Shown: positions 12,474 through 64,000 of the stretch, piece after piece
How the letters are laid out: each line of letters opens with the position of its first letter
Position numbering within the stretch: position 1 is the stretch's first letter
Assembly: GCA_026929865.2 (NCBI GenBank)
Contig: CM049414.1
Location: forward strand, 682,001 to 746,000
Direction: 5' to 3'
Source of the DNA: Hyperoplus lanceolatus
Taxonomy: Eukaryota; Chordata; Actinopteri; Uranoscopiformes; Ammodytidae
Length of the DNA: 64,000 bases
Made by a program: the position numbers and the translations under genes
Notes under the pieces: model-generated
Databases searched by the model: none
The model's input: only the letters and a program-made list of their open reading frames with translations
What the model was told of the DNA's origin: nothing

Positions 12474-12478
12474 CAGAG

Positions 12479-28068: not shown

Positions 28069-28298
28069 TCAGAAGCACTTCCTGAAGACAATCTCTGGTC
28101 CAATCTCGTCGTACTCCTCTTGACTGATCCAAGCAGAGCTGAAGCTGGGCAGGTTAGCCAGCGCTGCCCCTCCCCTCCACACTGAGAAGTCTCTATGCTG
28201 GGGGCTGGAGACACGGACACTCTCCCCCATCTCTCCAGCCAGTCCAACCATCTCATCCTGAAGCCGCTCGGGCAGGCCGGCAAGCTGAGTGTTTCCCC
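28069..28298 (-). CDS. Actin-domain exon 7 (last; residues 1,497-1,572)
   Basis: Acceptor TTTAAG, stop TGA at 28,071-28,069. Encodes [17 protein letters not shown] ..., [13 protein letters not shown] and [20 protein letters not shown]. It matches the actin C-terminus closely (WISKQEYDE-GPSIV-RKCF). Confidence 0.93.
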
Positions 28299-31200
28299 CT
28301 TAAACAGGAGATAAGGAGAGAAATAAAAAGGGTAAAAGTGTAATCAGATGAATTGAAACATTAAAAAAATCAAAGTACAAAGCATGTCAGCTGGAGCTAT
28401 GAGCCACAAGACTGGTAAAGACAAAGCAAGTTGTTACCTGACAGCACAATGTTTCCCAGCAGGCAGCGCCGCAGGTCAATGTCTGAGCAGAGGATGGACT
28501 TGAAGAGGCTCTCGTGCATCCCATAATGGTCCCGTCCAATCAGCTCAGGTTTAAAGAGAATCTCAGGGGCCCTGGAGGGGAAAGTGGTTCACCTATTTGA
28601 ATAGTGTGCTCCTCGAGATATGCCTCGTTTCCACTGAGCAGTACAGCTTGGTTCAGCAGGGCACAGTAACCCTGGATCTGGCTTGTGTTTCCACTGCAGA
28701 CAGCACCCTTACTTGGTAGGCAGGTTAAAGCTGGGCGGTGATAGCCATGGGTCAGGATACGTACAGCATGTTTCGCTGATTTTGGTACCCTTTCCAATGT
28801 CTGACAGTGTAAACACATGAAGAGCCGCACCAAACTGAAGCGCACGGCTCAGTGGAAACAAGGCTATAGTTGCTCAGTTTGAGGAGTGCTCTAAAGAGAG
28901 GCAGCTGTATCAACAGTCCTCCATGTGTGCTGCACCTGCAGGAAAAGGCTGTCTGGTGCACTGGATCGGAAGACAGAAGCCGGACTGACACTGTACTAAA
29001 GATTAGGCCCCATTTTAGGCCCAGACTCATCCAGTTAAAAAGGGGGTAAACCAATGAATGATGAATAACCAACATTCGGTTAAATTTTGATGCATTTAAA
29101 AAAGAAATCCCTGTACAAGTGGAAATGGCCTAACATTCCTGACATTACCTTGCACTCCATGACCAAGAAGTACAAGGCAGTATGGCTTACTCTCATACTT
29201 CCATTTGTCACTTTAACAGCTACACTTATTTTAAAAACATGCCAAAACCAACCATTTCAAGTTCTCTTTCCCTTTAAAGCTGTGCTGACAGTTACCTGAA
29301 CCTCTCTGTGTGGAGGTTGACGATCTGTCCGTCTGGCATGGTGTAATACATCTCTCTGGTGGCCGCCCCCCCTCCACTCAGCTCTGCCTCATAGTCCAGA
29401 GCCACACAGCAGCACTGCTCCTTCATCTCCCTCACTATCTCCAGCTCAGCTGTGGTGCGCATGCTCACACCAGATTCCTGCAGAAGCTTCATACAAAAGG
29501 CCCCGCAGCAAAATGCTTCATTTACATCACAAGTATAAAACATTTAATTCAGACCTATGCCACCAGAAGGGAATTTTTTACAGAAACGTAATAGGTCCAA
29601 AAGTGTAAAAGTACATGTAGCCAGCCATGTCTGTTCACATGTAAAAGTGAACAGACATGAACGTTATGGAATGACATGTCAAGGTGCATATCTGAAAGGG
29701 GCTTAAAAGTGGAGTTTTTGTCAAAAATCACTTTTTGTGAACATCAGTGAATATGTCCTCACATTTCGCTACCTGTCCGTACTGTGTGTGCTGAAATAAA
29801 ATCCAGTGTGAATACACAGCCTAGGCTCTGTAAACTGGTAGTTAAAAAAGATACGTAACCAAAAGGGCTGACCGTAGCTAGCAACATGCCTGTTTACACA
29901 ACCTAGGCTGTGTATTAACACTGGACTATTTTTTAGTGCACACAATAGGAGAGGTAGCAAAGCGTGAGGAGATATTTACTGATTTTGAGAAAAAGTGATT
30001 TTGTCAACAAGTGTTCTCAAGAATCATTGACTCAAGTCAAACAGACTAACCGTTTGTCACTGAAAGAGGTTCACAAAACAAACTGATATCTTCCTCGTAC
30101 GATCCCAGTGCAACAGCAGATAAGAATGAACATCATAATGAACACACTCTGAGCTCCTTCTGTGCACAAGTAGCTCGATATTCACCTATTTGATCTCTGT
30201 TTAGATTGTTCTGGATTCCAGATTGAACACTTCAAAGTGTTATCCATGGACGGTTCTAAACAAAGCAAAGTGAATACCTTTTTAAGATGCATTGTAACAT
30301 CCACACCAGCCAGAGGGAAGCGCTGCACTGCGTGAGGTAGACTGTATCCCTCAAACACAGGGACACTGTGGCTCACTCCGTCTCCAGAGTCAAACACCAC
30401 ACCTACAGTGGGAGCAAAACATACACATGCGAATATTCAGCACAATGCATAATTAAAATGCACAAATAGACGTAAATTGAGCAAAATTACCAGTGGCTCT
30501 CCCTGATGCATAAAGAGCCAGCACTGCCTGCATGGCCACGTAGGTGAAGGGAACATTGAAACACTCAAACATGATCTCCACCGTGCGCCGGCGGTTGTCC
30601 AGTGGGTTCATGGCTGCTTCAGTCAGCAGGACAGGGTGATCCTCTGGCTCCACACGCAGCTGCTGGAACGTGTGAGTCCAAATCTGAAACACAACCCCCA
30701 GTTGATGATAGTCTAACTGGAGTGGTCACACCACCATTCACTTTGGACCTTTGTGTAGGCTATAGTTTTTGTATACTTACAGTGCTGCTCGAAAGTATGT
30801 GAACCCCTTGAGCATTTTGGAATTGTATTTAGTTTAACCATTAATCATTGATTTTTATCAATAACAGTATTTTTATATGACATAACAGATGTCTGTTTAT
30901 CAATTCAACATTTTTCTTTTCCGGAAATCAATTGTTAAAACAGATCAAACAAATGATTTGCCAACTTTTCTATGTGCAAAAGTTTGTGAACCCTGAGCTG
31001 CATTGCTTAAATGGAGCAGGTAAACATAATCAGGTGGGCCAAATGGAGTGATGAAATGGACCAATGTAATGAGAGATCTTTAGGGAAGAAATTAGGCGGC
31101 ACTAGATAAAACAGAGATCAAACCAGGTCAGTTCAGGCTCACCAAAGTGAACCCATACAGGCCAGCCATGCCAAAAGGGAAAGAAAATCTCAGAGGATCT

Positions 31201-34200
31201 CAGGAATAGAATTGTGATGTTGAGTTGCGTTTTAGCCCAAACATGGCGGTTTTGGTTATGACAAAACAGTTACATTTTGGACTAATCTATCAACAGAATT
31301 AGACTTCAGGTATCTCCAGGTGCTCTCTGGCAAAGTTGTGACCAGCAGTTTTGTTATTTTTTGAGAGCAGAGGCTTCTTCAGCAACCCTCCAGGATGTTC
31401 AGTCACCCTTAAAGCTCTCCATTTGTAGATGATTTGCCTCGTGTTGGATCGATGGAGCTTTTTTTTTTTTTTTTTTTTTTATTAATTTATAGCTGTCCCA
31501 GACAAATTTGAAACATCACAACTCTATTCCTGAGATCCTTTGAGATTTCCTTTACTCTTGGCTAACTGACCTGTATGGGTTCACTTTGGTGAGCCTAAAC
31601 TGACCTGGTTTTATATCGGTTTTATCTAGTGCCGCCCAATTTCGTCCCTAAAGATCTCTCATTACATTGGTCCATTTCATCACTCAATTTGGCCCATCTG
31701 ATTGTGTTTACCTGCTCGATTTAAGCAAAGCAGCTCAGGTTTCACAAACTTTTGCCCATCAAGAGTTGGCAAATCATTTGTTTTGTCTGTTTTAACCATT
31801 TATTTCTGGAAAAGAAAAATGTTGAATTGATAAACAAACATCTGTTATTTCATATAAAAAAATACTGGTATTGATAAAAATGTATTAACCCATAAGGACC
31901 CATGGTGACATCCAGGTCACACACACTTTGAATGTCCCAAAATGTTCCTCATACAGGTTTATACTAGATTTTTACTCATTAAGTCCCTTAGTATATATAC
32001 TCAATATCCTGGTGTGGTTGTCATGTGACAGCCATGTGACTGTGTCAGGAAGTGACTTCCCAAAGATTGCAGTGTGACAGCTGCACACAATTGGAGAAAT
32101 TAGCAAATTTCAAAAGCTTGTTTTTTGTTACTAAAGGTGAGTTAAAACTAGTGCTGTCAGTGTAACGCGTTAACACATTCTAATATTAGGGTTAAAAAAA
32201 AAAAGTTTGGATAATATTTTGGATTTAAAAAAAAATAAATTTAAAAAAAAAAAAAAGAAATTGAGAAAACATCAGAAATGTGTTCTATGTGGTCTACTTA
32301 ATCTGTGTTCCATCCCTCATATTTTACTGGGTCCGGGTTCTTATGGGTAATGGTTAAAATTAAATTAAAATTCCAAAAGGCTCAAGGGGTTCACATTAAG
32401 GCTGGCCCGAATTATTCGAATATCGGAGTATTAGTTTGTTAAATTAGTATTCGGAGCTCAATTCAGTAATCGGAATATTAGTTTTTTTTTTTTCTTCTTT
32501 AAATTTTTTTAACATTTTTTTTGCAAAGGAAGCTCAAACTGCAGTATATTTTGTCAGCAAATAATATTTGGATACACAAGTTATAAAACAATTGTAAAAT
32601 ACAAATTAGACGTTCATTTAAAATATATTATCGAATTATTTGAACTTTGACCTAGTTGGCCGCTGCCCGTTCAAAGCGCAACCGGTGATATCAGCTGTAG
32701 TAGGCTGCGTGATGTTACCAGATCTGAGGCAAATTAAAAGCGACACCAAGCACAGGAGGGAGAGAGATGGAGGAAGAATAGATTGTGTTCCTAATAACTC
32801 TATAGGCTACCACAACATTAGCGCGATTTCGGAAGGAAATGTAATGCTTGGCGTAATAGTAACGTTAGCTTAGCTCAGCTGTTTGTTTACATTCAGCGCT
32901 GCTATTCAGCCATCATCAACCGTGACTTGCTTGCATCATGGGAATAGGCGGTCAATAATGGATATAATATGGACACAAAAGACTATCAATATTGGATCTT
33001 TGTATGGACTTATAAAATCGCCGAAAAGATGCACGTTCCTGGATTAATTGATAAACTCCTGTACGGGTTACGATGGCGCCGAGGACAGCTGATTTGGAAC
33101 GGAAAAACAGCTGTTCGCCTCCAAGGGGAAAAAGTAAGGACTACGACTTTACTACGTTCTAAAGTTATTAAAGCATCAACAAACTACGCAGCTTGCTGTC
33201 TCGGCTCACACACTCGGTTTCAGTGAGTACATTGGCATTATTAATGCTAGTTTGATGGTGTGTTTTTCTGGAACGAATATCCGAATATTCGCTCGGAAAA
33301 ACCAACGAATAGTCGAAGCCTGAAAAATGGCATTCGGGCCAGCCCTAGTTCACATACTTTCAAGCAGCACATGGGTCATTCTTCCTGTCTGAACACATGA
33401 CATACTCAAAACCTATGTAGTATACAAAAGTAATTGTTTTTGGTCATAGCTAAAGTTAATACTTTTATAATCATCTTGTACCTCCATGGGAAACATATGT
33501 ACTTTGAACCATTAATGGACTATACCTACATTGACAAGCATCATTGTCTTATTTAAAGAATTCCCAGATAAAATTCCATTAAGGGCACACTCACACTAGG
33601 TAATCCATACCCTACCAAACCTTGATGCCTAAAGCCTACTTGGTTTGATCAGTGTGAGTGCTCCATACTGTTCTCAAGGCCGTTACAGTTCCTTGGCCCT
33701 GGTACAGTTTGAAAAGGTGTGCTTCGGTAAGATACTGATGCTCATGTACGAGCATGCGCTTAGTAGACATTGGTCCTGTCTTCAGTGTATACAAGACAAT
33801 TCCTGTAGTAAAAAATGGGGGGACAAACATGCCTGGGCACAGTACAGGGAAACTGTTCCTAGTGTGAGTGTCCCCTAAAACGACCCTCATGGTATGTCGA
33901 TATCAAAATGCTACCCCCCTGCTTTGGTTTATACTGGTATAGTATGAGAGTTTTAGGCACCCAGTGACATCATATCTTAAATTGGCATATGCATTCCTAA
34001 TTCACCTTTTCCATTTCATCCCAGTTGCGAATGATCCCGTTCTTTATGGGCCGCTTCAGAGCCAAGACGCCTCTCATGTGTTGAGCCTCATGTCCAATGT
34101 AGGTCTCCCTCTCAAAGCTCCCGTTCATTACTTCCTGCAGACAACAATACAAAAAGTTTCCAGTCAGAAATAAAGCCAGAGTATTATAAGAGTGTATTTC

Positions 34201-37200
34201 CTTCTTGAAAAGAACAACTAGTACTACATTAAGTACACACCCTTACCTCATATTTTGGCATCCCAATAATTGTTGGGTATATAATGTTTGGAAGGTCTTG
34301 ATCTGCAAATCCTGCTTTCATCAAACCAGACCCTGTATCCAGCACTATTGGGGTCTTAAAATCAGTCACCTGCAATAAAACCAGATTTCGTATAGACTAA
34401 GCATTGAAATTAATATAATAGTCATATTACACTTCAAGTTAGTAGTGTATAGTATGCTGGACCTACACTGTAGTTATATTCAGAACATTGCAGGACATAC
34501 TCATAAATGTGTCAGGATGTGGTTAGCCTAGCTTAGCATTAAAAAAAGGTAGCCGGGGATAACAGCTATGACTGGACATGTCCTTCACAAAGACCTGAGA
34601 TTGATATTCATTTTCACATCTGATTCTCAGAAAAAGTTAAAAAGCGTATTTAAAAAGGGTTTAATTATCTCTCAGACACCACCAGAGAGCCGGCTTCGGG
34701 CTGTAAAAACCGGTTCAATCCAAAACCCAGGATTGAGCTGGGCTAGAGATGAGAACTGCCTGCGCCGGCGGCCGGGGGAGGGATTATCCTGACCAACCAG
34801 ACCAACTCAAACCTCATGCCCGCCATATTTAAAAACACCGCTACTACGAGACGTAAACACAACATAATTACCGAACGTAGCGATCAAATTGACCGGCGAA
34901 AATACGCTGTATGGGTCCTGTTTGGTTAACAAATCAAAGCGAGAGGCAAAACGTGTAAAAATAAGACGTATTATCCACTGTTGTGCTTAAAGCTAGCGCT
35001 AGCTTTAGCCACGAGAGCAGCGACGTCGGGCAACGTAAACACGTTTACAGTGACATCACGACGTTGCTCTCCTGCCGGCTCCATGGCTGGCTCTGGTCGG
35101 TGTGAAACCAACCGGTTCATAACTGGTATAAGGCTGTAACCAGTTTTGAACTGGCCCCCCAGCACCAGCCCGGAACTGGCTCTTGGTTCCTTTTGGTGTG
35201 AAAGGGGTACTACATAGTCCTCTTTGGAGTAAGACAGCTGAATTTGAGGTGAGAGGACTTTGTGTTATTCATGTCAAATTGTAAATATTTAGCTACTCAA
35301 ATGTGAAGGGAAAGCTATAGTTTAGATTGTTGTTAGCTAGCTAACTAGCTGTTAGATGGTTGTAAGCCTTAATGCTAGAAATTCCTGTTGGGTTTGGTGG
35401 TCACATGTTATCCAAAGGCTGCAGCCAGGAAAGGAACCCAATAATGAAAAAAAAAATCAAGCTGTTTCCTCACTGACACCCCAGAGAAGGAGAGAATTAA
35501 GCAGGAAAAGGCAGCTAGCATGAAAAAGAAAAAAAGGGCAACAAAATCAAAACGTCCCAGTGAATCCCGATCTAGCTGCCAAGGCTACGGCACCCCAGTG
35601 CACTCCACCCCAGCTGGGGAAGAGGAAACAGAAGAGAAAGAGAGAAGAGGAGGAATCTTCATCAGATGAAGATGATAAGTTTTTGTTTTTATGGAAACGG
35701 TCTCCAGCACCCGTTCAGGGGAGGTATGGGAGAAGTGTTTGATGTGCAACCATTGGGCACACAAGCTCTGCTTAGTTAGAGTGAGCAGCAGACCCAACAT
35801 TTTCCATCACTGTAACTCAGATAGTGAATGTGCGTAGCCTAGTTGAGTAGGCTATTATAGTTAGACCTATTTGCTTTGTTCTTTATGTTGTTACATAGGC
35901 CGGTCTAAATATTGGTTTCCTGTTCGTCTTCCTTGCTAATTTTGTGTTACGATGCATGAAGTTTGCCCTTCATTAGCAGCTATAAGAACTCTGTGGGAGC
36001 AGGACCTTGGTTCTGCCTTCACAGATTACATGTGGGATTCAGTCCTGGATCAGATACATTCTACCTCCATGTGTGCCCGACATGCTCTTGTGTAATTTAA
36101 AGTAGTACATCGTATCCACATGTCTAAAACTAAATTAGCTCGTATGTTCCCCGATGTAGACCGACCTGTGATAGCTGTAAGAACGCACCGGCATCACTCT
36201 TTCACATGTACTGGTTGTGTCCCACCTTGACTGAGTTCTGGACATCAGTTTTTCAAACAATTTCTGAAGTACTGCAGTAGCAAATAGAGCCGAACCCTTT
36301 TACTGCAATTTTTGGAATTGCTCCAAATCTGGGCTTGCCTAAAGTGAAGCTGAAGGTACTGGCCTTCACCTCGCTACTTGCTCGTAGGGCTATATTACTC
36401 AAAGATCCTGCTCCTCCTTCCCACTCACACTGGATTAAAGACATTATGTCATGTATGAATCTAGAGGAAATACTTTATACTACCCAGGGATCCGAGATTA
36501 AATTTGACAAAATTTGGCGCCCCTTCATAAATTATTTTGATAAACCAACTACAATAATACAGGAGTAGCTACCCCCTCCCCCCTTTTTTATTTTTTTATT
36601 TATTTTATTTTTTCATCGATTGTTTATTTTTGTTTTTTGTAGCGGGTATTTCGTCTATGTAATTTTCTAACATTGTGTATTGTTTTTTTTGTTTTTTTTG
36701 TTTTTTTCTTTTTCTTTGTGTGCTGCAGGATTGGTTGTGGGTGGGGGTGAGATGTGGGAGGAGTGTGTTCGGGGGGGGGGGAAAGGGGCAAAAAATTAAT
36801 CATTGTATTGTATTTGCTTTGCAAATTTTTTTTTGATGAATAAAAAAACCTTTGAAAAAAAAAAAAAAAAGATGCATGAAGTTATGTAGGCCTATTTGTC
36901 AGCTTGACAATGCAATTGAACTTTGAAATTTAGTTATGCCTTGTTGCCTTCTTTTTAAGATGTTTCCCATTGAAATAACATTGTGACAACCCCATAGTGT
37001 GACAACCATCCCCGTGATGGGGTTGGTTGTCACAATGTGACATTGTTGTCACAACGTGACAACCAACCTATCTTTGATGGTTAATTACTTATTAGTTGGA
37101 AAAAGAGAGGGATACATATTTCAAGCCAACACATTAAGCTTCAATTTAATGTAGGAATGACTATTGAAAGATGTTTTAGTGAGGAGCAATTCAGACTAGA

Positions 37201-40200
37201 GAAAAAAGTGTGCCTACCAACTCCGTTCTCCCCTACTTTTCCTACACAGAGCTGAAAAGGTATTGAGCCTTTGAGCCTCATTTTTTGCATGTGCTATACA
37301 CTGAAAATACCTAAAAATTAAGGCTAAATTGACAGTAACCAGTTTCACAGCCAGTGTGTACCTCTCTTGTGTTGTTATTGAGCTGGGCCTGAGGCCCAGG
37401 TGCCCCAGAGCCTGATCTCCTCATGGCCAGAGAGCTGTGAACACCACCATCAGACCAGTCTTCTTCATTCTGCTCATCTCTTCCAAACTCAGGAGGCAGT
37501 TCGGGTGCTGGCAGGGGATCTTGGCCCTCATTGGCCCTCATATCAGCCTGGATTTCCTCTGGTGGTGGGGAATGGGCCCGTCGCAAAAATGCAGGTGCCA
37601 CCCATGTATCCTCTTCATCTGTAGAACTGGATTCAGACAATGACAACTCTGAGAGGGCATAGTTGTTATTGTTGTTGGTGCTGTGTTCATTTGCATTTGG
37701 ATTGAGATCCAAGTTAGTGCTGATGGCTGGAGTCAGATTTTCTGGCAGTTCACTAGAAGGTTCATTTTGTAAATCGAATTGCACGAAAGTGGGTTGCGGA
37801 GACAGGGCCGGATTCTGCTGTTCCGAATGAGGGGTTTCCTGTTTGCTGACAATTTTATTCACAAGAAATAAGGCTTTTCTTGTCTTAGGCTGAGGAGGAA
37901 CTTGGAGGGACTCACCACCTGGGTCAAACGCCCCATCGTCCGGCCTCGTTTCAGGGCTCAAAGAAGCTTCCGGTTTGCAAATAGTAGCATTTTTTTCGCC
38001 ACCAGAACCGTCCAATTCTCTCCCATAGATATATCCCTGAGGTTCCGTTACCTTCTCCTTAAGAGCCTCCGTAAAATCCGAGGCACTTATTAAGGTAGTT
38101 CTATTAAAAACTGTTGGCCTAGCTTCGGAGCAATGATCTTGTAGACATTGGGAATCTGGAAGTTGAATCAAGTCTTGTTGTATTGTAGCCTCTTGGGCAA
38201 CATTGGGACCCCATACTGCTTGAATGAGTTTAGTTTCACAGATACCTTCAGCATAAGAATTTGTCGTCTGTGATTCGTTACAGCTACCTGATACAATCGC
38301 AACACATTGTGCTGGGACCTCCTCATTCTTAGTTGAAGTCTTTTCCATTATAGAACATTTGACAACCTTTCTGGCCCTGTTCTTATGCTTTTTGTAATGC
38401 TCTTTGTCCAAACTCTTTTCAAGCTTCTTCACCTCCCTTTTCTCCTTTTCCAGTTGTACCCGAAAAGCCTCCCTCTCTTTGCTCATCTTCAACAGCCCGT
38501 TTGGATCCAGAGCTTTCCCCCTGGAGAGATGATCTTCGTTGGGGCTTTCTTCTACACAGCGTCTGAGCTCGTGGATCTTTAGGTTCTCCTCCATGATCAG
38601 CTGGTCCAGGACTTGGACTTCTCTCAGCTCCGTCACAAGGCCCGGCCTGCTGGGAAAGGATACTGTATCTTCTGCTTCTGGAGTAGCTTCAGTAGAGGGA
38701 TTGTGCCATTCCCAAAACTCAGTTTCAAAGGGAGATCCAGTCGACCTGGGTTCACTTAGGTCGTCAGATTCTGCGGGGACGAGGTTATCGTCCAGGCCAA
38801 GGACACCAGCTTCGGCCAGCTCACTAGATGACATCTGGAAAATGAACATAAAGCACACAAATCTCAGGTTTAAATACAGGCACAAGGATATTTTACAAAA
38901 TGCATTTTTCTCCCTCCGTTAGCAGAACATAGCCCATACACACGACAGTGATTTAGTCTGTACACATGACAACGCGAAAAAAAAACGATTGAAAATGCTG
39001 ACGCAACTCATGCCAAGCCAATGTGTGTCAAGTCAAACACCATAAATGAATAAAGTGAGCATGCACATTGAGCATGTTCAAAATAAAAACCAAATTGAAA
39101 ATAGCAAAATCAAAAACCAAAAACTAGGTGCAAAGCTAGGTGCAATCAAGCCTAATGGAGGAAAACAAACCGATAACCTCAGCTTGGAGCATGCTCTGTA
39201 GATGGAAACAACAATTGCCATGCATGAATTGAAGTCATGAAGCTAGCGTTTCCCAAACCTTGAGTTTCCCTGTCCCTACGAATACGGGCAAAACTGGCAG
39301 TGTTTCCCCCACGTTCACACAGCAGCGGCGCGCCACCGCTGCTATATTTTCTCCGCCGCTGCTATTAAAATCCTCCTCATTCTACTTTTTTTATCTATTT
39401 ATTTTTGGTACGTAGCTCATTTTAGAAACGGGGCAATGCCTAACATAAACGCTGTCCATGCGTCGGAGGTGAATGTAACTTACTCGGCGGAAAACAGAAA
39501 CTAACGGAGGGGAGCGGCTCACTCTAGAGTCCCATTATGGCGCTTTTCCACCGCATGGTATCAGCTCAACTCGACTCAACTCGCATGTTCGGCGTTTCCA
39601 CCGCAATTTCATGGTACCTGGTACCTGGTAGCGGCTGCTTTTTTGGTATCGCCTCGCTCTAGGTTCCAAGCGAGCTGAGCCGATGCTAAAAGGTGACGTC
39701 GGCAGACGGCCGGCCACTGATTGGCCAGAGACTATTGTGTGGCCAGTCAGTGGCCAGAGACTACCGGCTTCATTCTGTTGTTTATTCTCCCCAACTCTCC
39801 GGGACTTTTGAGTGTATTTACGCCGCGTGCAGCCTTCTCTGGCTCTCTTTCATTTGATTTGCATCGCAGATCCGAATTTCTTTTCCATATATTCGCTAAG
39901 CTCACCCAGTGTTGGTTGTTGGGGAAGTTACTTAACATACGAGAGGAGACATGTAGGGCAGCTAGCAGCTAGGCTAAATAGTAGCCAGCTGGGACAGACA
40001 TGATAGCGAGCGATTACATTACAAGCCTCGGACTGAACTGATTACCTCAATAAAATATTCAGGCTGAGACACGGCTTGCATTTGAAAACACGTATCCTGA
40101 AACAAGCACTAAACAGTCAACTTTATCATGCCCGTGTTTACGTGCATAGGGATGTACGTGACGCATCCCTACAGCTAGGGGTGTGCGGAGACGTCATTAT

Positions 40201-49200: not shown

Positions 49201-52200
49201 AGAATCCGCTTTAGTGGCCTAGAATGGGAATTTGACTTTGTATTAGCTTATATTTAAAGGAGGGGATAAATATTAATTGAATCTCTTATACCAACCAATG
49301 TAACTCTTTGACTGTCAGCCCTGATGCCAGAAGAAAATACTTATACTGTATATAGACACGATCAATTTTCTCCTATTAGGAACATTTTATTAATTTATTT
49401 TGTTCAGTGTCCCTTCACAGATTTAAAACAAGTGATCAATAAATTTAAGAAACTGTCCATTCATTTTCTATAATAAACCAATCTTTTCACCTCAGACACC
49501 GAGCATGACCCAAATATCCTGGTATTCTGAGAACTTGCCTTTTTGTAGAAATGGTGGTAGTTGGACACTGCTCCTAGGGTTTGGAGAATGAAGTGAACAG
49601 CTGAATGGAGTTTGTCTTTCAACCTCTCTAGATCCAGTGCCCAGTGTTCCCCGGTGTGAGCGTCATAGGGAAGCATCTCCGCTGACGTGTGGATCACATC
49701 TTCAGCACAGCGAACCAGGGCCTGGTGAGGGACAGGGCAGGAGGACCAGCAGTTAGTTGAAGATACAACTCAAGCTTTGCCCTGTTTCCACTGAGCAACG
49801 AAGTTCGGTTCGGCTGGGCACGGTAACCCTTGATCTGGATTGCGTTTCCACTGCCAATAGCACCCCTACTTGGTAGTTGGGGTTTATGCCGAACGGTCAG
49901 AGTAAATACAGTCTATGGGTCTGAGCGGTTACATAACTTTCCTGACATCATAGCAGAGGACAGTGTAGTCCGCTGATTAACTCAATGAAGAGGAAAAACA
50001 CCACACAATAACAAAGAGCTGCACACCAACATTTTTCTCTGAACATAATTGTTAAAGGAATTATTTTATCAAAAAAAACAAAACCAAAGCAGGTGAAGTT
50101 TTTACTTGCAAACAGCTACAAGGGTCCAATTCAACATACGTCACAAGTGTGGCACAGATGATGGAGACAAAGAACTGAACAGTGTACAGGGATTATATGC
50201 AGTGAAGATGGTGTGTGCGAAAACACACTAGGTTTGTGTGTTCAATGTTAACCATCAGCAGATGTTACAATTTCGTACAATGTCCAGGAAAGAAAGATGA
50301 GGAGTGTATACTCCTATCTCCAGGATGTAATAACTCATACAGTGCAATTAAAAGCACCGGTAGATTCAGGGAGATCTCCCACAGCTGAACTTTTAACCAT
50401 TGAAGACACATACATCTCTTACATTGTAGTAGAGCCATAAGTTTAGTAGGACAAAGTTCATAGCAAGACAGTATGTAATGTGTTACCTTCATCAAAATGT
50501 TATAATGTATATAACGAAACAAAGTTTTGTTGACAATAAGAGTCTTCACTCTTCTAGATGTGACTCCACACAGCTGTTTATCTCTCACAGGGAAATGATG
50601 ATTCTGTCGACCAAACAGACTGCAGTGTGTAGCTCCACCCTTTTGGGACCCTTTGGGACGGTTTGGTACCCCAGCGAAAGGGCTCGCTTATTTTGGTACC
50701 CTTCCAAACTTTTGACAGTGGAAACGTAAATAAATGCGTGGTCAGCCGCACCACTGGGTGGAAACAAGGGTAAAGGGAATTCATGTTTAACCACTGATAA
50801 CTACTGCTGATAGGAAGCAAGTATGGAGCCGACATGTAACTAATATTAGGTTCAACTGAAATGTGTGTTAAAGTAAAGAAACAAAAACACATCAACTAAA
50901 TCATTACCATTGCAGGAGTGTATATGGACGCCTCAAACTCTGACTCCAGCATCACTGCCTTGGCATCATCCTTGGCGATCTCCATTTGGTAAGGTTCCAG
51001 TTTCTCTTGAAACAGAGTTTTGATCTGCTCTGTGATCTAAGCACAAGGAACACATTCACTTTGTTGACATGTTAACCACAGCTACTCATCATGGTAGTCA
51101 TCACCATTATTTAAAAAAGGGAAGAACTGAAGTGTTAAAATCCTTGAAAATCCAATGAAAAGCACAATAATTAATCACACTAACAATGAGAATAGCCTGG
51201 CAAGACCAGCCCAAACCTGCTGACTTCTTATTCGTTTCTCTCTCACTTTCACCAATCTCCACGGGGAGGAACCGGTCAAAACCTGACAGGGTCAACCAGG
51301 ACCCACGTTCTAACCTAACATCAGTCCCTTATAGTTCAAGGCAGTTTGTGACTGCTTCATGTAGTCGTCAATCTAGCCTGGTGAGACCAGCCATATCTCA
51401 CACTGCTCCCTTTTAGTTGTGTTCAAGATAGCTTTAAACAAAGTGTGACAGGTTACCGATTCAGTGGAGCCATGTGGGGAAATCTAATTCTGGTGACTGA
51501 CATAACATTAAGATAAACACATTTTGTTAGGTTAGGGGCTCATTAATAAAAAACCAATTGTGAGTATTGCTAGTCAAGACTGCAACTCAAAATGTAATAA
51601 TGAAACACATGGAAACTGAAGAAAAAAAAATAGTACTTTTAGCATAATGGCATGTGGTCTTCATCCTGTTATTTAGGCTGATTTGTAGATTTCCCACAAG
51701 CCCCTATATGAACAAACCCCCCCACCTCATTGTGACTAACCTGCAGTGCATCCTCTCTCAGCTGAAGCACCTGCAGCTGGAGATGGGCCGTGGAAAAGGC
51801 CTGCTGCCACAGCAGCTCCACTTTCTCCACAGCAGAGGTTATCCTGTGAGAAAACAAGAAACAAAAGAGACCTTTAATAGCTAGTATCGTCAATTTATTA
51901 TTAACATATTGTGAGCCATAAAATGGTTGCTTTATCCCAAATACTTTCAAATACCAAAATGAGGGGACTCAAGTTTACTCGGACTGGCCTTTATTAATTG
52001 CAAAGATGCATCCCAGAGTTAACTTGTTCAAAAGATAAGAGTAAGTGAAAATCAAACTAGTAAAAAACTAAAAGTAACAAAACATTTTCAGCCTACAACA
52101 ACCTTACTAGTATGATGCTGTCACTGTGCATTAGCTGTTGTTCAACACACCCCCATTGCAACCTTGTAGTATGGTATGTGTAGATGTGTTCTCAGAGGAT

Positions 52201-55200
52201 TCAGACAAAGCCCTTTGAGAACAGCTGTGTTTTCTGTAATGTAGCCACCCCCCCCCCCCCCCCTCCACCCTGGGAGGCTGCAGTACCTGCTGTGGTTGTG
52301 CATCATGTCGTGGATGGTGCGGGTGTAGAGGGCTGTGCCGGCCATATCCAGGTAGCAGGGCTCTGTCTCAGGGGAACGCAGCTTCTCCAGCACACACTCA
52401 CAGTGCCTCAGCAGCTCATCCAGACCCAGCTCCCTAAATAACACCACATGTTTAGTTTCAAGAAGGGCTAGTGGGTTTAAGAAAATATTACACATCAATA
52501 TAGTCCAGCAGACAGTCGTATAAGAGTAAAAGCCCTTTCTAAAGCTACAGTGCTGTTTGAAAGTATGTGAACCCCTTGAGCATTTTGGAATTTTATTTAG
52601 TTTAACCATTATACATTTATTTTTCTCAATGTTTTTCAATTGCACATTTTTCTTTTCCGGAAATCAATTGTTAAAACAAATAAAATAAAATGATTTGCCA
52701 ACTTTTGTATGTGCAACAGTTTGTGAACCCTGCGCTGCATTGCTTAAATCGAGCAGGTTAACACAATCAGGTGGGCCAAATTGAGTGATGAAATGGACCA
52801 GTGTATTGAGAGACCTTTAGGGAAGAAATTGGGCGGCACTAGATAAAACAAAGATCAAACCAGGTCAGTTCAGGCTCACCAAACTGAACCCATACAGGTC
52901 AGACATGCAAAGAGGAAAGAAAATCTGAGAGGATCTCAGGAATAGAGTTGTGATGTTGCACATTTGTCTGGGGACAGCTATAAATACATTTAAAAAAAAG
53001 TTTGAGCTCCATCGGCCACCCATGAGGCAAATCATCTACAAATGGAGAGCTTTAAGAGTGACTGAACATCTGCCTAGAAGTGGACTTCCTTCAAAAGTAT
53101 CTACAAGCGTCAAAAGAAAAGTGATTATCAGGTAAAAGCCAACCCAAACATTACATCTGGAGATTTGCAGTATAATTAATTAACTAGAAAATCCTGCGGT
53201 GGCGCCCCACCCGTCGGCCCGGATCAAACGCTTCTAAAACCGCCGCTGCGCGCTTTCCAAACTCGAGTCCCAAGTTGTGGCCAATTGAAGGTTGCAGCCA
53301 TGGCAAATCTGCGGAAAAAAGGCCGCTCTTGCGAATACGTTTTAGTGAACAGCGGCCATCTCGCTAAAACTATTCACACATGTGTATGTTGGTCCCCTAA
53401 GGCTGTGTACACAATTTGGTGATGATGGGTTGGAAATCCATAAAGGAAATGTCATGTGTTTTCAGATTATGCAAATTTGGGATGAAAAGACAAACCCTAT
53501 GGTCCAAGAGCTTTATTGTAGAGCACTATGAGCTGTATGTGTGTAAGAAATTTCAAGTCAATCAGAGTCAGGGGGTGAGGGACATGGCCTGTCAAACATT
53601 ACATTTTTGAATTATGGTTCTCATTTGTGGCGCCCCCTAGGGGTTAATCTTTGGGTTAAACAAGTTTAGAGGGACATGCTACCACATGTCTTCTGCACAT
53701 ATCCAGCACTTTTTATGATGATAGGACCTATGGTCAATGAGTTATGGCCAATTTACTGATAAGCCCCGCCCGTGCGTAAACGTTTTGGTCAATGGCGGCC
53801 ATGTTTTTCCAAGCTATCCTACTAATATTTTTCAGTGACATGTGTCATAGTCCACCGAGGTTTCGTGAGACGTTTAGTGTCAATACAGTGTAATTTGAGG
53901 AAGTTGTTTTTCAGTTTATGCTAATTAGCGGAAAATATTCCCGGGCGGATTTATATGGTCCCAGAGGCTTTTTTGTAGGGCACAATAAAGTACACCTGTG
54001 TGAGAAATTTCAAGTCAATCGGAGTTACGGTGTGAGGGGCCTGGCCTTTCAAAGTTTCTTCAGTTGGGGATTAATTACAGCGCCACCTTGTGGAAAATCA
54101 AAAAACTGAATAATAGCACACCCCGTGGAATGGGGACGGACGTTCTGTGAAATTTTTGCCTTTCTATGTGCAACGGTGTGGGAGGAGATAGAGGTAGAAA
54201 ATGTGGCGGAAGAAATAAGAAGTAAGAAGAAGTATGGTGGACAACAATAAGTTACGGCCCCTCAATACTTGAAGACCCGTACTTAATAAGTATGGGGGAT
54301 AGCAATAATTACGGGCCCTCAATACATTGAGAGTCTGTACTTAATTAGTTAATATCCCCCAAAGGCACTTCAACACTGTCCAAATCGGCCAAGCAGTTGC
54401 TGAAATATTGTTTATTTAGGCGATTATGCTTATTATGCTAATTGCCCAACATGCAAGTTAGCATCCAGCAGTTTCGAATTGCTGCGGACACATACTGTAC
54501 AATTCTAAAAGTAAAACTTTGGTTTACTCAACATATCCGCAGGGTTTTTCCTGAATCAGAATGGGCCTTTGGGGGGGACAGTACGCGGACCAACTTTTTT
54601 GGGGTTTGCGACTATGTGTAACAGTAAAGGCAAAACGTTATTATATTTTAAGAGGGGTGTGGGGTTGGGAGAGGGCAGTTTATGTCCAGCTACAGAGCAT
54701 TTAGGTTAGCCTGTCAATCACTGTGTTACCATGGAGCTTACTGACTGATAACATCACAATAAAGAATCTGTAGATAAGAAGTCAAAATACTAATAATGAC
54801 TGTTTCTAATTGATCAAACCAGTGGCTCTCAAAGTGCGGCCCGCCATATCTAGCGGCCCGCATTGAATTATGAATTATTAAAAATAATAATAAATAAATA
54901 ATAATAATAAAAAAAAAAAATCAATTGAAACAGACGGAGGGGATGCGTCCCCGTAACAGTAAAAACAGTACAGGGGTCGAAATACTTAAATATCCCTCCT
55001 AATTGTTTATATTCATTACCCAATTATTAATAATAACACCCCTACAGTGGACCGTACCATCTTAAACTTGCGAAGTTCGGCTGGCCTCTGCCTCTCGTTG
55101 CAGACGGCTGGTCAGCCTCCCGCAGTGCAGCAGGCAGTGTAGTGGTCCCAATGTAAGTTGTTAGATAGTGAGCTTGTTAAGCCCAATACGATGCACTCTC

Positions 55201-58200: not shown

Positions 58201-59389
58201 TCACACTTTCAACACACGGACATGCACTATATTGCTCCCTTCTCAGTTCACACTCACGCGCCTGGTACGCGCTAGTAAACAGCTTTGCAACAGCGGGCGT
58301 CGTAAAAATACTACCGCTTTTGTCCAAAGGGGACGCCAACGTGCCATGTTACTCGTAGTGGCTTTAAATGGCTATATTTATTCTCAAATTTTATCATTTT
58401 GGCGCTGGTGATTTTCCTTTGCCGCTGGTTAAATCCTTTTTGGGGGGGCGCCGAAAATTTCTCTATGCAGGAAAAACCCTGATCCAGCATCCCTATGGGC
58501 TGGCAAATAGACTATAATGCCAGTCCCAAGGAAATACAATTGTGTCGCCCAAATAGCTAAAATTGTTCCAATCCTTAAATCATCAACTTCCCTTAGAAAA
58601 GTTAGGCCCGGCACACACATCCTGCGTCTACCTCTGGAGTGTGTCCGTTAGTGCTCCGTCTCTCTCGCTGTTTTTGGCCACACATGCAATGTCTCTGCTG
58701 CTAATCACACTAACAATGCTGTCTTTCTACATATAGTTTTCTTAGATAATTCCCACATGATTAATATTGAGTTTCGACAGTAATTCGTGTGCCTCATTGC
58801 CTTTTTTTTAACTCCACATTTTTGCTTGTGGGAAGTTTTATTTTAAAAAAGGACACACAAGGAAATGGTGAAACTACAGCGAAAGCTGCTAGTATGAAAT
58901 CAATGTGACTGCCAACAGAGTTTTTCTCAATCAGTTAAAGCAGAGAGAGAGAGACGCGCGTCTCTCCGAAAAAAAATAAATACCTTACTATGCAAAATAT
59001 TAGTCATTTGTAGTTTTTTACCTTTTTACAAAGACGTTATGTTAGTAATCCTAGGTGATGATCAAAATAGATTATTTGGCAACAATTACACTGTATCCCT
59101 TCTAACATGGTTGAATAAGCTTGGTCTCCCTTGATTTTTTTATTCTGAGATTTTCACAAAGCAGTAAATGATATCAGGCTATGTAAGGAAGCAGTGGTGG
59201 CCTATAAGCAAGAGTTAGTGAGCCTGACCTCCTGAGCTGCTGGAAGGTGGCTTGGTTATTGGAGCAGAAGTGTTGGAGCTCAGTGAAGGCTGAGGGCATG
59301 GGCAGCCTGGACAGAGCACGCAGTGTGGAGATACACTCAGGCAGCCTCTGCACCACACACAGGAACTCCTGGACAAACGCATCAATCTC
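28069..59389 (-). CDS. Large gene: helical N-terminus, coiled-coil middle, actin-fold C-terminus (5' partial)
   Basis: Eighteen exons join in one frame, giving 1,572 residues and a stop; all splice phases agree. Residues 1-707 are mostly amphipathic helices (spectrin-repeat-like, family not recognised) with low-complexity acidic parts. Residues 708-1,198 are one exon with two coiled coils (about 774-803 and 824-864) and long disordered acidic Ser/Glu-rich sequence. Residues 1,199-1,572 form a full actin fold: phosphate loop 1 DTGSG, loop 2 DSGDG, the VLSGGNT segment and the terminal IVFRKCF. The actin part starts exactly where actin residue 5 or so would, with no ATG of its own, and its first exon starts in phase 0 after a phase-0 donor of the coiled-coil exon. 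So a single chimeric protein is the simplest model. Alternatives: two genes, with an unseen short first exon for the actin part, or translation beginning at the ATG that opens the coiled-coil exon. Upstream exons must lie right of 59,389. Confidence 0.7.
28438..28571 (-). CDS. Actin-domain exon 6 (residues 1,452-1,497)
   Basis: Acceptor CCCCTCCAG, donor GTCAG|GTAACA. Encodes [39 protein letters not shown], i.e. actin subdomain 4/3 sequence up to the ATP-contacting LSGG. Confidence 0.93.
28621..28865. mobile_element. Harbinger-like MITE (TGCCTCGTTTCCAC ends)
   Basis: 245 bp, ends TGCCTCGTTTCCACTGAGCA and the inverse of GCTCAGTGGAAACAAGGCT, flanked by ATA on both sides. It is related to the 715-bp element at 41,766 and the one near 49,780. 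Confidence 0.7.
29296..29486 (-). CDS. Actin-domain exon 5 (residues 1,389-1,452)
   Basis: Donor TTCAG|GTAAC. Encodes [20 protein letters not shown], then [33 protein letters not shown]. The acceptor is either GAAG|CTTCTG (used; aligns with actin without a gap) or CTGCAG|GAATC, which would drop three residues. Confidence 0.9.
30278..30402 (-). CDS. Actin-domain exon 4 (residues 1,347-1,388)
   Basis: Acceptor CACTGTAG, donor AAAG|GTATTC. Encodes [20 protein letters not shown] then [20 protein letters not shown]: the second phosphate loop with the catalytic aspartate and histidine of actin retained. Confidence 0.93.
30491..30683 (-). CDS. Actin-domain exon 3 (residues 1,283-1,346)
   Basis: Acceptor TTTCAG, donor ACTG|GTAATT. 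Encodes [32 protein letters not shown] and [20 protein letters not shown]. The glutamine matching actin Gln137 is present (AMQAVL). Confidence 0.94.
31888..32347. mobile_element. Nested repeat with CCCATAAGGACCC ends
   Basis: Inverted ends ACCCATAAGGACCC and GGGTCCGGGTTCTTATGGGT break the right arm of Tc1-like copy b. About 460 bp, A/T-rich interior, no ORF. Confidence 0.55.
32397..33347. mobile_element. hAT-type element nested in Tc1-like copy b
   Basis: 8-bp duplication GTTCACAT at 32,389-32,396 and 33,348-33,355. Ends TAAGGCTGGCCCGAAT and TAGGGCTGGCCCGAAT, then repeated CGAATAT/ATTCG words near both ends. 951 bp, no transposase domain recognised. Confidence 0.82.
33583..33875. mobile_element. 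MITE with TAA target duplication
   Basis: Ends GGGCACACTCACACTAGG and CCTAGTGTGAGTGTCCCC, flanked by TAA (33,580-33,582; 33,876-33,878). 293 bp, PIF/Harbinger style. Confidence 0.72.
34006..34134 (-). CDS. Actin-domain exon 2 (residues 1,240-1,282)
   Basis: Acceptor TTGTCTGCAG, donor GAAAAG|GTGAAT. Encodes [20 protein letters not shown] then [20 protein letters not shown] and MEK. Same length as in actin; the DNase-loop part is diverged and the position of methylated His73 is Asn. Confidence 0.93.
34247..34369 (-). CDS. Actin-domain exon 1 (residues 1,199-1,239)
   Basis: Acceptor TTTTATTGCAG, donor TATGAG|GTAAGG, phase 0 at both ends. Encodes [20 protein letters not shown] and [20 protein letters not shown] plus E. 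No ATG lies in frame between the acceptor and the fold. Confidence 0.93.
34530..35210. repeat. GC-rich repeat-like block in the intron before the actin exons
   Basis: Contains GAGCCGGCTTCGGGC, AACCGGTTC (twice, in both orientations) and the end-type word TTTGGTGTGAAAGGGG. Probably one or two decayed MITEs; ends are not defined. Confidence 0.35.
35475..35780 (+). pseudogene. Relic of the C-terminal tail of a pogo/Jerky-like transposase
   Basis: One frame gives [20 protein letters not shown] and related basic sequence with [13 protein letters not shown]; after a frame change comes [19 protein letters not shown], with spaced C-x2-C and H-x3-C pairs. This combination of a lysine-rich stretch and a small Cys/His ribbon is usual at the C-terminus of fish pogo/CENP-B-type DDE transposases. 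The DDE core is not visible. Frames are broken. Confidence 0.45.
35964..36870 (+). pseudogene. 5'-truncated L1/Tx1-like LINE copy 2
   Basis: A near copy of 560-1,398, ending in AATAAAAAAACCTTTG and 17 A. The 13-bp duplication GATGCATGAAGTT flanks it (35,951-35,963; 36,871-36,883), proving retrotransposition. The reading frame has stops (GTGTAATTT, CAGTAGCAA), so it is dead. Confidence 0.85.
36983..37065. repeat. Short cluster of GTTGTCAC words in both orientations
   Basis: TGTGACAAC occurs repeatedly with its complement GTTGTCACA, including GTTGTCACAATGTGACA. Can form alternative hairpins. Unknown role. Confidence 0.5.
37362..38834 (-). CDS. Coiled-coil / acidic exon (residues 708-1,198)
   Basis: Acceptor TTCATTTTCCAG followed by ATG; donor AGAGAG|GTACAC; 491 codons, phase 0 at both ends. 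N-terminal part is acidic with [12 protein letters not shown]. Heptad-like helices follow ([40 protein letters not shown]), then a basic KKHKNRARK patch, then a long disordered region. A Ser/Glu-rich segment ([18 protein letters not shown]) and [10 protein letters not shown] come near the end. The family is not recognised. Because it opens with ATG straight after the acceptor, it could also be the first coding exon of a shorter form. Confidence 0.82.
39538..41673. mobile_element. Harbinger-like element with TTA target duplication, interrupted by a hAT
   Basis: Ends TGGCGCTTTTCCACCGCA and TGCGGTGGAAAAGCGCCA, flanked by TTA at 39,535-39,537 and 41,674-41,676. About 2.1 kb, of which 1,160 bp is the nested hAT. 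Confidence 0.8.
40176..41335. mobile_element. hAT-type element nested in the Harbinger-like element
   Basis: 8-bp duplication CCTACAGC at 40,168-40,175 and 41,336-41,343. Ends TAGGGGTGTGC and TAGGGATGAGC. Subterminal repeats of TATCTGTATC near both ends. No transposase seen. Confidence 0.8.
41766..42480. mobile_element. Harbinger-like MITE with TGCCTCGTTTCCACC ends
   Basis: 715 bp; ends are complementary over more than 35 bp (TGCCTCGTTTCCACCGAGTA), flanked by TTA (41,763-41,765; 42,481-42,483). Chance ORFs inside are not genes. Confidence 0.85.
42484..43690. other. No gene; interior of the hAT-like element
   Basis: A/T-rich with CCCCAGACCCCC (43,111) and a run of ten C near 43,400. The segment 43,065-43,130 resembles 55,640-55,705 (AATGAAGTGTT, CCCCCAGACCCCC), so the two hAT-like elements share internal sequence. 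Confidence 0.4.
44399..44650. repeat. Near-perfect fold-back of 250 bp
   Basis: AATAAAATATGCAAAT ... CAATATCTCATTCAATAT on the left is the complement of ATATTGAATGAGATATTG ... ATTTGCATATTTTATT on the right. Arms of about 50 bp. Confidence 0.75.
45088..45192 (-). CDS. Helical exon 10 (residues 673-707)
   Basis: Acceptor CTCTCCAG, donor CATACG|GTATGT. Encodes 35 residues, [20 protein letters not shown] then [15 protein letters not shown]; strongly acidic helix. Confidence 0.82.
45245..46415 (-). mobile_element. tRNA-derived SINE, split by a hAT insertion
   Basis: Read on the minus strand from 46,415: GCGCTCATGGTGTAGTGGTT then AGAGCG is a pol III A box in tRNA context; after the insert, GGTTCGAATC at 45,374-45,365 is a perfect B box. 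An A-rich tail (GCAAAAAAACGCGAAAAAG) lies near 45,280. The A and B boxes are now about 1 kb apart, so pol III transcription is presumably dead. Confidence 0.7.
45408..46372. mobile_element. hAT-type element inside the SINE head
   Basis: 8-bp duplication CTGTAGGG at 45,400-45,407 and 46,373-46,380; ends CAGGGCTGTACAC and GTACAGCCCTG. 965 bp, mostly A/T-rich, no transposase recognised. Confidence 0.85.
46487..46583 (-). CDS. Helical exon 9 (residues 640-672)
   Basis: Acceptor AATTTCAG, donor CTGGAG|GTAAGA. Encodes [20 protein letters not shown] then [12 protein letters not shown]. Confidence 0.83.
46713..46958 (-). CDS. Exon 8 (residues 558-639)
   Basis: Acceptor TCCCCCAG, donor CATGG|GTAATG. 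Encodes polar, mostly disordered sequence: [50 protein letters not shown]. Confidence 0.82.
47133..47840 (-). CDS. Exon 7 (residues 322-557)
   Basis: Acceptor CATCAG, donor GACAG|GTAATA. Starts with a helix ([20 protein letters not shown] then [13 protein letters not shown]) and continues as Ser/Pro-rich disordered sequence with [26 protein letters not shown] and [16 protein letters not shown]. Confidence 0.85.
48262..48838. mobile_element. Fold-back element in the intron before exon 7
   Basis: Two arms of about 120 bp face each other: TTACGGAGCTGGTAGTCAGC ... CTTTAAGGAG on the left and CTCCTTAAAATG ... GCTGACCACCAGCTCCGTAA on the right; inner arms around CAGCTTTAGTTTG and AACTAAAGCTGTGG extend the match. 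It ends only about 28 bases from the donor of exon 6. Confidence 0.75.
48866..49107 (-). CDS. Helical exon 6 (residues 242-321)
   Basis: Acceptor CTTTCAG, donor CAACG|GTAAGT. Encodes [20 protein letters not shown], then a linker and [20 protein letters not shown]. Confidence 0.85.
49539..49721 (-). CDS. Helical exon 5 (residues 181-241), GC-type donor
   Basis: Acceptor CCTCACCAG, donor AAAAAG|GCAAGT. Encodes [40 protein letters not shown] and [11 protein letters not shown]. The donor is GC rather than GT but otherwise ideal. Confidence 0.85.
49779..50771. mobile_element. Related long MITE with CCTGTTTCCACTGAGC ends
   Basis: Left GCCCTGTTTCCACTGAGCAA and right GGGTGGAAACAAGGGT are inverted. 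Shares words with 28,621-28,865 (CGGTAACCC, TTTCCACTG). Target duplication not clear. Confidence 0.6.
50908..51036 (-). CDS. Helical exon 4 (residues 138-180)
   Basis: Acceptor GTGCTTAG, donor GCAATG|GTAATG. Encodes [20 protein letters not shown] then [20 protein letters not shown] and PAM. Confidence 0.85.
51037..51740. other. Intron with no recognised element
   Basis: About 700 bp between exons 3 and 4. Repeated TAGCCTGG-GAGACCAGCC and GCCTGGCAAGACCAGCC words at 51,195 and 51,376 suggest a short fish repeat, but ends were not found. Confidence 0.35.
51741..51843 (-). CDS. Helical exon 3 (residues 103-137)
   Basis: Acceptor TTCTCACAG, donor CTGCAG|GTTAGT. Encodes [20 protein letters not shown] then [14 protein letters not shown]: an amphipathic helix with coiled-coil spacing. 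Confidence 0.85.
52287..52433 (-). CDS. Helical exon 2 (residues 54-102)
   Basis: Acceptor TTATTTAG, donor AGCAG|GTACTG. Encodes [20 protein letters not shown] then [21 protein letters not shown] run of 17 C-rich bases on the plus strand lies in the following intron. Confidence 0.85.
52548..53170. mobile_element. Tc1/mariner-like element, copy c (one arm only)
   Basis: Left end TA|CAGTGCTGTTTGAAAGTATG. The arm reads on through CATCTACAAATGGAGAGC, TTTAAGAGTGACTG and CCCAAACATTACATCTGG, then stops. The other end is lost. It supplies the unfilled TTAA site used to recognise the insert in copy a. Confidence 0.7.
53175..54370. repeat. Two-unit tandem repeat, period about 460 bp, family unknown
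   Basis: 53,334-53,640 and 53,772-54,095 are direct copies: each has AGCGGCCAT or GGCGGCCAT, TATGGTCC, TTGTAG-GCAC, GAAATTTCAAGTCAATC, GTGAGGG-CATGGCC or GGCCTGGCC and a GTGGCGCC or GCGCCACC box, in the same order. Ends with AAGAAGTAAGAAGAAGTATG and a pair of GGGCCCTCAATAC-like words. No ORF of note. Confidence 0.6.
54823..55902. mobile_element. hAT-like element (CAGTGGCTCTCAAAG ends)
   Basis: Left CAGTGGCTCTCAAAGTGCGG and right TTTGAGAACCCCTG are inverted; flanks TGATCAAAC and TGATCTAAAC look like a diverged target duplication. Interior has hAT-type CCCCCAGACCCCCG and a run of plus-strand AAATAAT. Confidence 0.6.
55934..57389. mobile_element. hAT-like element (TAGGGCTGCTCGATTATG ends)
   Basis: Left TAGGGCTGCTCGATTATG and right ATTGCCCAGTCCCT are imperfect inverted ends, with AATCATGATTATTTTGAT-like subterminal words on both sides. 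Same family as 60,473-61,591. Target duplication not clear. Confidence 0.55.
57432..58363. mobile_element. TTAA-flanked MITE, copy 2 (long form)
   Basis: TTAA at 57,428-57,431 and 58,364-58,367; ends AGCGGCTACGAGTAAC and GTTACTCGTAGTGGCT. Outer 250 bp match 2,621-2,870 nearly base for base. An internal stretch (about 57,670-58,110) is absent from copy 1. Confidence 0.8.
59229..59389 (-). CDS. Helical exon 1 visible (residues 1-53)
   Basis: Acceptor CCTTGCAG, donor GGAG|GTCAGG. Encodes [40 protein letters not shown] and [13 protein letters not shown]. Phase 0 at its start, so at least one coding exon lies upstream (higher coordinates); none was recognised before the window ends. Confidence 0.82.
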
Positions 59390-63024: not shown

Positions 63025-63106
63025 ATTTAAGTTAGACTAATTTAACCTTTTTGAGTTACAATGTTACTTTGTGTTAAGCCCTCAGAATGATCACAGGACA
63101 CTCAGA

Positions 63107-63250
63107 TGTGTTAGCTGCTCACTTACTGCATGTGTTAGCTGCTCACTTACTGCATGTGTTAGCTGCTCACTTACTGCATGTGTTAGCTGCTCACTTACTG
63201 CATGTGTTAGCTGCTCACTTACTGCATGTGTTAGCTGCTCACTTACTGCA
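63107..63250. repeat. 24-bp minisatellite, six units
   Basis: Six apparently identical units made of TGTGTTAGCTGC followed by TCACTTACTGCA. 24 is a multiple of three, so the plus strand gives a false cysteine-rich repeat ORF. Confidence 0.97.
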
Positions 63251-64000
63251 TACATTTGATTAATATGAATATGCTCCCTGTGCTCAGAATATGATTATTG
63301 TCAAGTATTGCAAGGGTGAATGTCGAATTAACAGATGCAGATTTCCCTTTGATCTTTATGTATGGTGGGCCTTATGCAAAAACCTTTTGTATCTTCGCAT
63401 ATTGATATTGTTCTGTCAGGTTTGCTTGTATGAGTGAGTTTCCCCAGGTTGGATTAGGCAAACCCTCTGAACTGCACAACCCTTATTAAAACTGCTTGGT
63501 TAACAACATTTTAAACTATGCCCACCAAAGTACTACTTCTCTCATGAGAAATGTGTGAATGTGACCAGTTCACAGGCTGGTAGTGCCAATAAGGAACAAA
63601 TCTGTTCATAATATTGGTTACTTGTAAGAGGTCCATTGTACTCTATGTAGTAGTTGTTGAACGCCAGTTGCCATTGGCTATTGTCTGTGCTTAGTACACA
63701 AAAGTGATGTCATTTTTATGTTTTTAAGTTCTGCACATTCAGCCTTAATACATAATGTATACCATATAGTTTAAGTATACAGTTTGGAATTCACAACAAC
63801 AACAACAACAACAACAACAACATTTTGACTAAAGCGTCACAATATATTGAAAATAATTCGCTCGCTATTATCGCAAATGTTGATAGTAGAGAAAGATAGT
63901 CAATCATTTTTAAATATGAATACCTCCTAGCAGGATGATATTTGCAAAACGATAGGGAAAGTCCTAGTACAAGGAAGATTAAATCCCCCGGATCTTGTTT
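63251..64000. other. No gene recognised; ACA microsatellite
   Basis: A CAA run of about ten units lies at 63,795-63,823. The rest is A/T-rich with no exon or transposon end I can support. Confidence 0.4.

Follow-up and report, generated by a model that had tools for sequence, protein, structure and literature searches.

A minus-strand gene in the window (the whole analysed stretch of 64,000 nucleotides, G000:C20:682001-746000, in a genome of 806.7 Mb) is best read as a single fused gene, running from the 59,389 side to 28,069, whose predicted chimeric product carries a complete actin fold at its C-terminus. From the sequence, we give this reading a probability of about 0.7, and the actin tail is perhaps present as an alternative isoform. 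The evidence seen at the gene level consists of an open spliced frame, a CRAL-TRIO and an actin domain, a first actin exon with no ATG, and no RhoGEF domain nearby. All 18 exons of the original prediction (59389..28069) were reproduced from the raw sequence with a splice model and join as had been claimed, with every phase fitting and the terminal stop as the sole stop, into 1,573 codons including that stop, that is, 1,572 residues. GT donors were found in 16 of the 17 introns and a GC donor in one, the GC-AG intron behind 49539 (after E5; donor AAG/gcaagt). Further, the gene extends past the right window edge, and four more exons were placed in 29.7 kb of adjoining sequence; neither the true 5′ end nor exons ahead of the CRAL-TRIO domain were found within this extension. 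The exons are given below from 5′ to 3′, those in the window as placed by the splice model.

72552-72429, 70927-70825, 65702-65589 and 65502-65386 (continuation coordinates), minus strand: extra upstream exons
59229..59389, minus strand: E1, first exon in the window, directly after the CRAL-TRIO exons
52287..52433, minus strand: E2, helical-looking
51741..51843, minus strand: E3, helical-looking
50908..51036, minus strand: E4, helical-looking
49539..49721, minus strand: E5, helical-looking, with the GC-AG donor
48866..49107, minus strand: E6, helical-looking
47133..47840, minus strand: E7, polar and probably disordered, an open reading frame with no Pfam family
46713..46958, minus strand: E8, polar
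46487..46583, minus strand: E9, acidic segment
45088..45192, minus strand: E10, acidic segment
37362..38834, minus strand: E11, 491 codons, polar, no Pfam or PDB match, one place in the genome
34247..34369, minus strand: A1, actin residues 1-41, GTG first, strong acceptor
34006..34134, minus strand: A2, actin residues 42-84
30491..30683, minus strand: A3, up to actin residue 150, phase 1
30278..30402, minus strand: A4, up to actin residue ~191
29296..29486, minus strand: A5, actin
28438..28571, minus strand: A6, actin
28069..28298, minus strand: A7, actin C-terminus, RKCF followed by TGA

The N-terminal part had been labelled helical/coiled-coil, and it is better described as a CRAL-TRIO/Sec14 domain followed by a helical-looking stretch, at the place of the spectrin repeats of SecSR proteins, and by an extended polar region that is probably disordered; the coiled-coil label was set aside because the CRAL-TRIO exons point to a better family. 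When the extra exons were assembled with E1 and the rest, Pfam CRAL_TRIO_2 scored 31.2 bits (cut-off 23; E 3.2e-7), and CRAL_TRIO scored 20.2 bits on the same assembly, below its cut-off of 22.6. A rougher assembly without exon 70927-70825 gave 20.1 bits for CRAL_TRIO_2, under the cut-off, and the rise in this score is partly selected, because exon 70927-70825 was picked by eye out of nine phase-fitting candidates. An exon-by-exon search of the genome with the CRAL_TRIO_2 profile returned four places, the window gene not being among them, as may happen when a domain is split over several short exons. Against PDB, the completed CRAL-TRIO stretch had no match at E up to 1; an incomplete assembly had given one PDB match, to Kalirin, at an insignificant E of 0.31.

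Behind the CRAL-TRIO domain come the helical-looking exons E2–E6, and then the polar, partly acidic exons E7–E11. The helical part, whose helicity was judged by eye, matched no Pfam family, spectrin included, and nothing in PDB with E values as high as 10 allowed. No Pfam family was found in either E7 or E11, and searches of PDB, IMG/VR and prokaryote genomes returned no relative of E11, for which the chance of 491 codons staying open is ~7e-14 as calculated from base composition. Within the gene's own genome, neither the helical part nor E11 had a paralogue, and only CRAL-TRIO exons of other genes matched.

Used as a genome query, the CRAL-TRIO stretch matched twelve places at E up to 10, five of which are the gene itself and seven of which lie elsewhere (on C9, C11, C8, C24, C23, C18 and C2; E 4.4e-4 to 7.9). 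A RhoGEF match follows 4–9 kb downstream on the same strand in 4 of these 7 relatives (C8, C11, C24 and, as the weakest, C2); for the C9 relative the RhoGEF match is 69 kb off, and none was found near the C23 and C18 relatives. On C20, which carries the window gene, no RhoGEF domain (PF00621) was found below 7.6 Mb among 110 matches, with 150 of 185 candidates scored; the RhoGEF matches at 7.7, 15.5 and 27.6 Mb on C20 are so far off that none of them belongs to the window gene. The exon after the CRAL-TRIO domain starts with AIE.F in the C9, C11, C8 and C24 relatives and with EIDAF here, and the junction behind the domain reads, by eye, as the same one in these four.

The arrangement resembles that of the SecSR class, comprising Kalirin, Trio, MCF2, MCF2L, MCF2L2 and SESTD1, in which, according to PMC9823006, a study of the Kalirin Sec14 domain, a CRAL-TRIO domain precedes spectrin-like repeats, SESTD1 is without a RhoGEF domain, and the proteins act on the actin cytoskeleton via small GTPases. 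The window gene resembles this class minus the RhoGEF domain and plus actin: it has a CRAL-TRIO domain ahead of helical-looking sequence, and it has the exon junction at the domain end that is common to the C9, C11, C8 and C24 relatives. It differs in that Pfam recognised no spectrin repeats and an actin module is terminal, while no RhoGEF was found, as in SESTD1.

The claim that the last seven exons make a full 374-residue actin fold was fully borne out, as these residues matched Pfam Actin (PF00022) with E 1.5e-110 over profile positions 5-410 of 410, and the best PDB actin match had E 5.1e-135. A conventional actin would be expected to be 85% or more identical to other vertebrate actins. 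The actin part lies below this threshold, being 54% identical to L036, L037 and L039 (which we take to be muscle-type), 53% to L038 and L040, and 48% to L042, that is, 48–54% to six actins of its own genome that are mutually 86–100% identical. Identity was 44–45% to two genes presumed to be Arp2-like, and 29–36% to two other actin-related genes. As the Arp2-like genes themselves are 46–52% identical to the own-genome actins, the module's distance from actin is comparable to that of a canonical actin-related protein. Compared with its muscle-type paralogues, the product of the muscle-type actin gene L042 (C14:20616500-20620700) reaches only 91% identity over 371 residues, which may reflect divergence or some mis-splicing in the splice model.

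Based on a list of nucleotide-site positions that we assume to apply to the actin part, none of the 13 phosphate, Mg and catalytic positions is changed; they include D11, G13-G15, K18, Q137, D154, D157 and H161. At the base and ribose positions, 5 of 9 are kept and 4 are changed (T303N, M305Q, Y306L and K336D). Further, H73 is replaced by N, the D-loop (positions 40-50) is changed at 8 of 11 positions, and the C-terminal KCF is kept.

The actin part is interrupted by six introns, at 41/0, 84/0, 150/1, 191/0, 256/2 and 301/1. The first three are all present among conventional vertebrate actins, which the module also resembles in its full fold of 374 residues and its catalytic residues; it differs in the later introns, 191, 256 and 301 here vs. 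204, 268 and 328 in conventional actins. Among fifteen loci compared, intron 191/0 is common only to L045, L047 and L048, and introns 256/2 and 301/1 were found in none, several of these loci being partly or roughly recovered. Having six introns, three of them at conventional positions, the actin module therefore did not arrive as a retrocopy. A fused retrocopy was also sought by an actin search and rejected, since matches of 80% or more lay only at the gene's own exons (79 candidates scored); outside them, the highest were 74% and 71% (31 residues each), followed by 65%.

The first actin exon had been described as opening at about residue 5 with no ATG. The missing ATG was confirmed, while the starting residue was not: with D11 fixed, codon 1 of A1 is a GTG directly behind the acceptor, at the place of the ATG of cytoplasmic actins, and it counts as residue 1. 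Conventional actins have their own initiator Met in this exon, and in the same genome an ATG was found there in 7 of 7 conventional actin genes recovered to the start (L036–L042; of these, L041 was recovered no further than its fifth exon, while L043, known only from residue 198 on, is left out of the seven). Read upstream from A1, the frame reaches a stop before any ATG. The actin part might be a remnant in decay whose expression has ceased, with the GTG instead of a start codon and the changes T303N, M305Q, Y306L and K336D on the adenine side and H73N as signs of decay. We regard this as very improbable, as 374 codons run without a stop or frameshift, the six internal introns all have GT-AG ends, and the catalytic residues and the C-terminus are kept. 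In favour of one gene, the actin part keeps usable splice sites at 46% divergence from the muscle-type actins of its own genome.

The reading as one gene depends on the junction, at which E11 would be spliced to A1. With 9.89 bits, a score reached by 0.8% of AG sites, A1 has a strong acceptor. The 491-codon exon had been said to end in phase 0 with a good donor; the phase holds, but the donor, GAG/gtacac, scored 3.19 bits and is the weakest of all 16 GT donors in the gene model, the next being 3.88 bits (E8), and its score is reached by 14% of the GT dinucleotides on the same strand in the window plus 29.7 kb. The phase agreement of E11 and A1 has, taken alone, a one-in-three chance, which counts against one gene. 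A single protein of more than 1,570 residues with a C-terminal actin is the probable and best reading, resting in part on a weak donor. Because this donor is weak, an optional actin tail, used or else replaced by a stop 16 codons on, is plausible.

The junction intron (37,361-34,370) has 2,992 bp, ~2,560 bp of which are repeats, and its features are as follows, the copies of each repeat being taken from the best 40 candidates scored (for the first repeat, 40 of 709).

37311..37361, minus strand: reading on past an unused E11 donor, 16 further codons and then TAG
36871..37239, minus strand: interspersed repeat, 369 bp, other copies 80–83% identical
35965..36870, minus strand: interspersed repeat, 906 bp, other copies 86–95% identical
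34676..35960, minus strand: two interspersed repeats, 35960-35210 and 35209-34676, 1,285 bp, copies 80–91% identical

The repeat 36870-35965 was called LINE-like by eye; it resembles an open reading frame at 600-1166, itself without a Pfam match. The non-repeat rest of ~432 bp consists of 122 bp behind E11 (37361-37240), 4 bp, and 306 bp ahead of A1 (34675-34370), for the last of which no other copy was found in the genome. Three candidates for additional exons with a phase-0 exit were obtained in the intron at the thresholds used, and they were rejected, all three lying within repeats. The CpG-rich bins at 34.6-35.2 kb were likewise rejected as a promoter sign, being largely inside a repeat.

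Mobile or repeated sequence was also seen elsewhere in the window and beyond its right end. A Copia-type retroelement occupies 8008-12309 on the minus strand, with two long frames (RVT_2 E 7.3e-28; integrase core E 7.5e-11) and a third frame that is gag-like by position and has no Pfam match. On the plus strand, 12472-14328 holds a long frame (619 aa) that matches reverse transcriptase (RVT_1 E 5.3e-32) and is presumably LINE-type. A short tandem array with a 24-base unit (gtaagtgagcagctaacacatgca) lies at ~63091-63294, and upstream of the gene, at 87.9-91.4 kb of the continuation (L011), are transposase-like frames that we take to be Tc1/mariner.

If left unspliced, E11 ends at the TAG at 37,311 with ATTAAA at 37150, ~160 bases past it, and could form an ordinary last exon, which argues against one gene. 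The interval may then separate two same-strand neighbours, a Sec14-spectrin gene ending at this TAG and a divergent actin-related gene with its own short ATG exon. The ATTAAA sits within the repeat 37239-36871; a poly(A) signal or a donor borne by a repeat can still be usable. When possible first exons with an ATG were sought at a donor cut-off of 4 bits, the interval gave six ATG-donor pairs; the LINE-like repeat holds three of them and another repeat one, and the remaining two are nested and share a donor (37290/37281). The longer of the nested pair, 37290-37237, is the only candidate ATG exon that lies outside the three larger repeats; it ends in phase 0 and has a donor of 5.8 bits, above the 3.19 bits of E11. 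However, its donor is at the edge of the repeat 37239-36871, and it starts 21 bases after the TAG, in what would be the 3′ UTR of the first gene. As a point against one gene, as many ATG-donor pairs were obtained in only 45 of 500 shuffles at 5.7 bits, 77 of 500 at 5 bits and 183 of 500 at 3.19 bits, these being simple shuffles in which the repeat 37239-36871 is not taken into account. Against two genes, no ATG-exon candidate at 3.19 bits or above was found in the 306 bases ahead of A1, and the two parts are separated by only the ~432 non-repeat bases. The weak E11 donor and the in-frame stop 16 codons on speak for two genes; on balance, two neighbours are an unlikely explanation.

An inefficient joining, as the weak donor would fit, might also come from two genes that are joined, in addition to their separate expression, by read-through transcription and intergenic splicing, with the fusion as a minor product. 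Conjoined genes lying on one strand have been described as a class (PMC2953495). However, A1 lacks a start codon, so that translation of the actin part would depend on the fusion unless another start exon exists; a conjoined pair is rated as improbable, below two separate neighbours. A single fused gene is the most likely of these readings.

Actins had been said in the original prediction to be normally free-standing, a statement to which primate POTE-actin proteins (POTEE, POTEF and relatives) are an exception: in these, according to PMC7073761 and PMC8292509, an actin is joined in frame to the C-terminus of a larger unrelated protein. The window gene is like them in its in-frame C-terminal actin module. 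It differs in the partner, ankyrin/coiled-coil in POTE-actin and Sec14/helical here, and in the actin, a beta-actin retrogene there and a six-intron actin here: no ankyrin repeats were matched by Pfam in the protein, and an intronless beta-actin retrogene is likewise not what it carries. Drosophila Arp53D (PMC8291977), a non-canonical actin-related protein, likewise has a divergent actin fold that is extended at its N-terminus, in that protein by 40 residues that direct localisation, whereas the window gene adds at least 1,198 residues with a domain of their own. Actin fusions as such are therefore already known from POTE-actin, while a Sec14-actin combination, or any actin fusion of fish, was not reported among the matches listed from the open-licence literature (titles and abstract openings). 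This silence is weak evidence of newness.

For the product, an outline can be proposed from the anatomy of the protein, as inference only. One gene, starting beyond the right end of the window, would encode a CRAL-TRIO/Sec14 domain, a helical-looking (spectrin-like) part, a long polar linker and an actin fold. In the reports on SESTD1 (PMC4536496) and Kalirin (PMC9823006), the Sec14 part is placed at membrane lipids or among Rho-pathway partners, and the Sec14 and helical parts of the predicted protein may bind membrane lipid and Rho-pathway partners in the same manner. The long linker would leave the tethered actin mobile. Instead of polymerising freely as a subunit, this actin might act as a fixed actin-like ATPase, cap filaments, copolymerise as a marker or offer actin-binding proteins a surface to dock on. 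A cap, marker or docking role is more likely than that of a bulk filament subunit because the adenine contacts, the D-loop and H73 are altered while the catalytic residues are kept.

A wider reading, held tentatively and with somewhat less than even confidence, is that in a vertebrate lineage an intron-bearing, anciently diverged actin was placed on a Sec14/spectrin-type Rho scaffold in exchange for its RhoGEF core, giving a lipid-sensing protein that would take its own actin to the membrane, possibly as a splice-regulated tail. If true, a covalent actin on a SecSR-type protein would tie actin directly to the sensing of membrane lipid, and the actin module would have been recruited with its introns, in contrast to the retroposition in POTE-actin. 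The gene would then offer a natural test of how a tethered actin acts.
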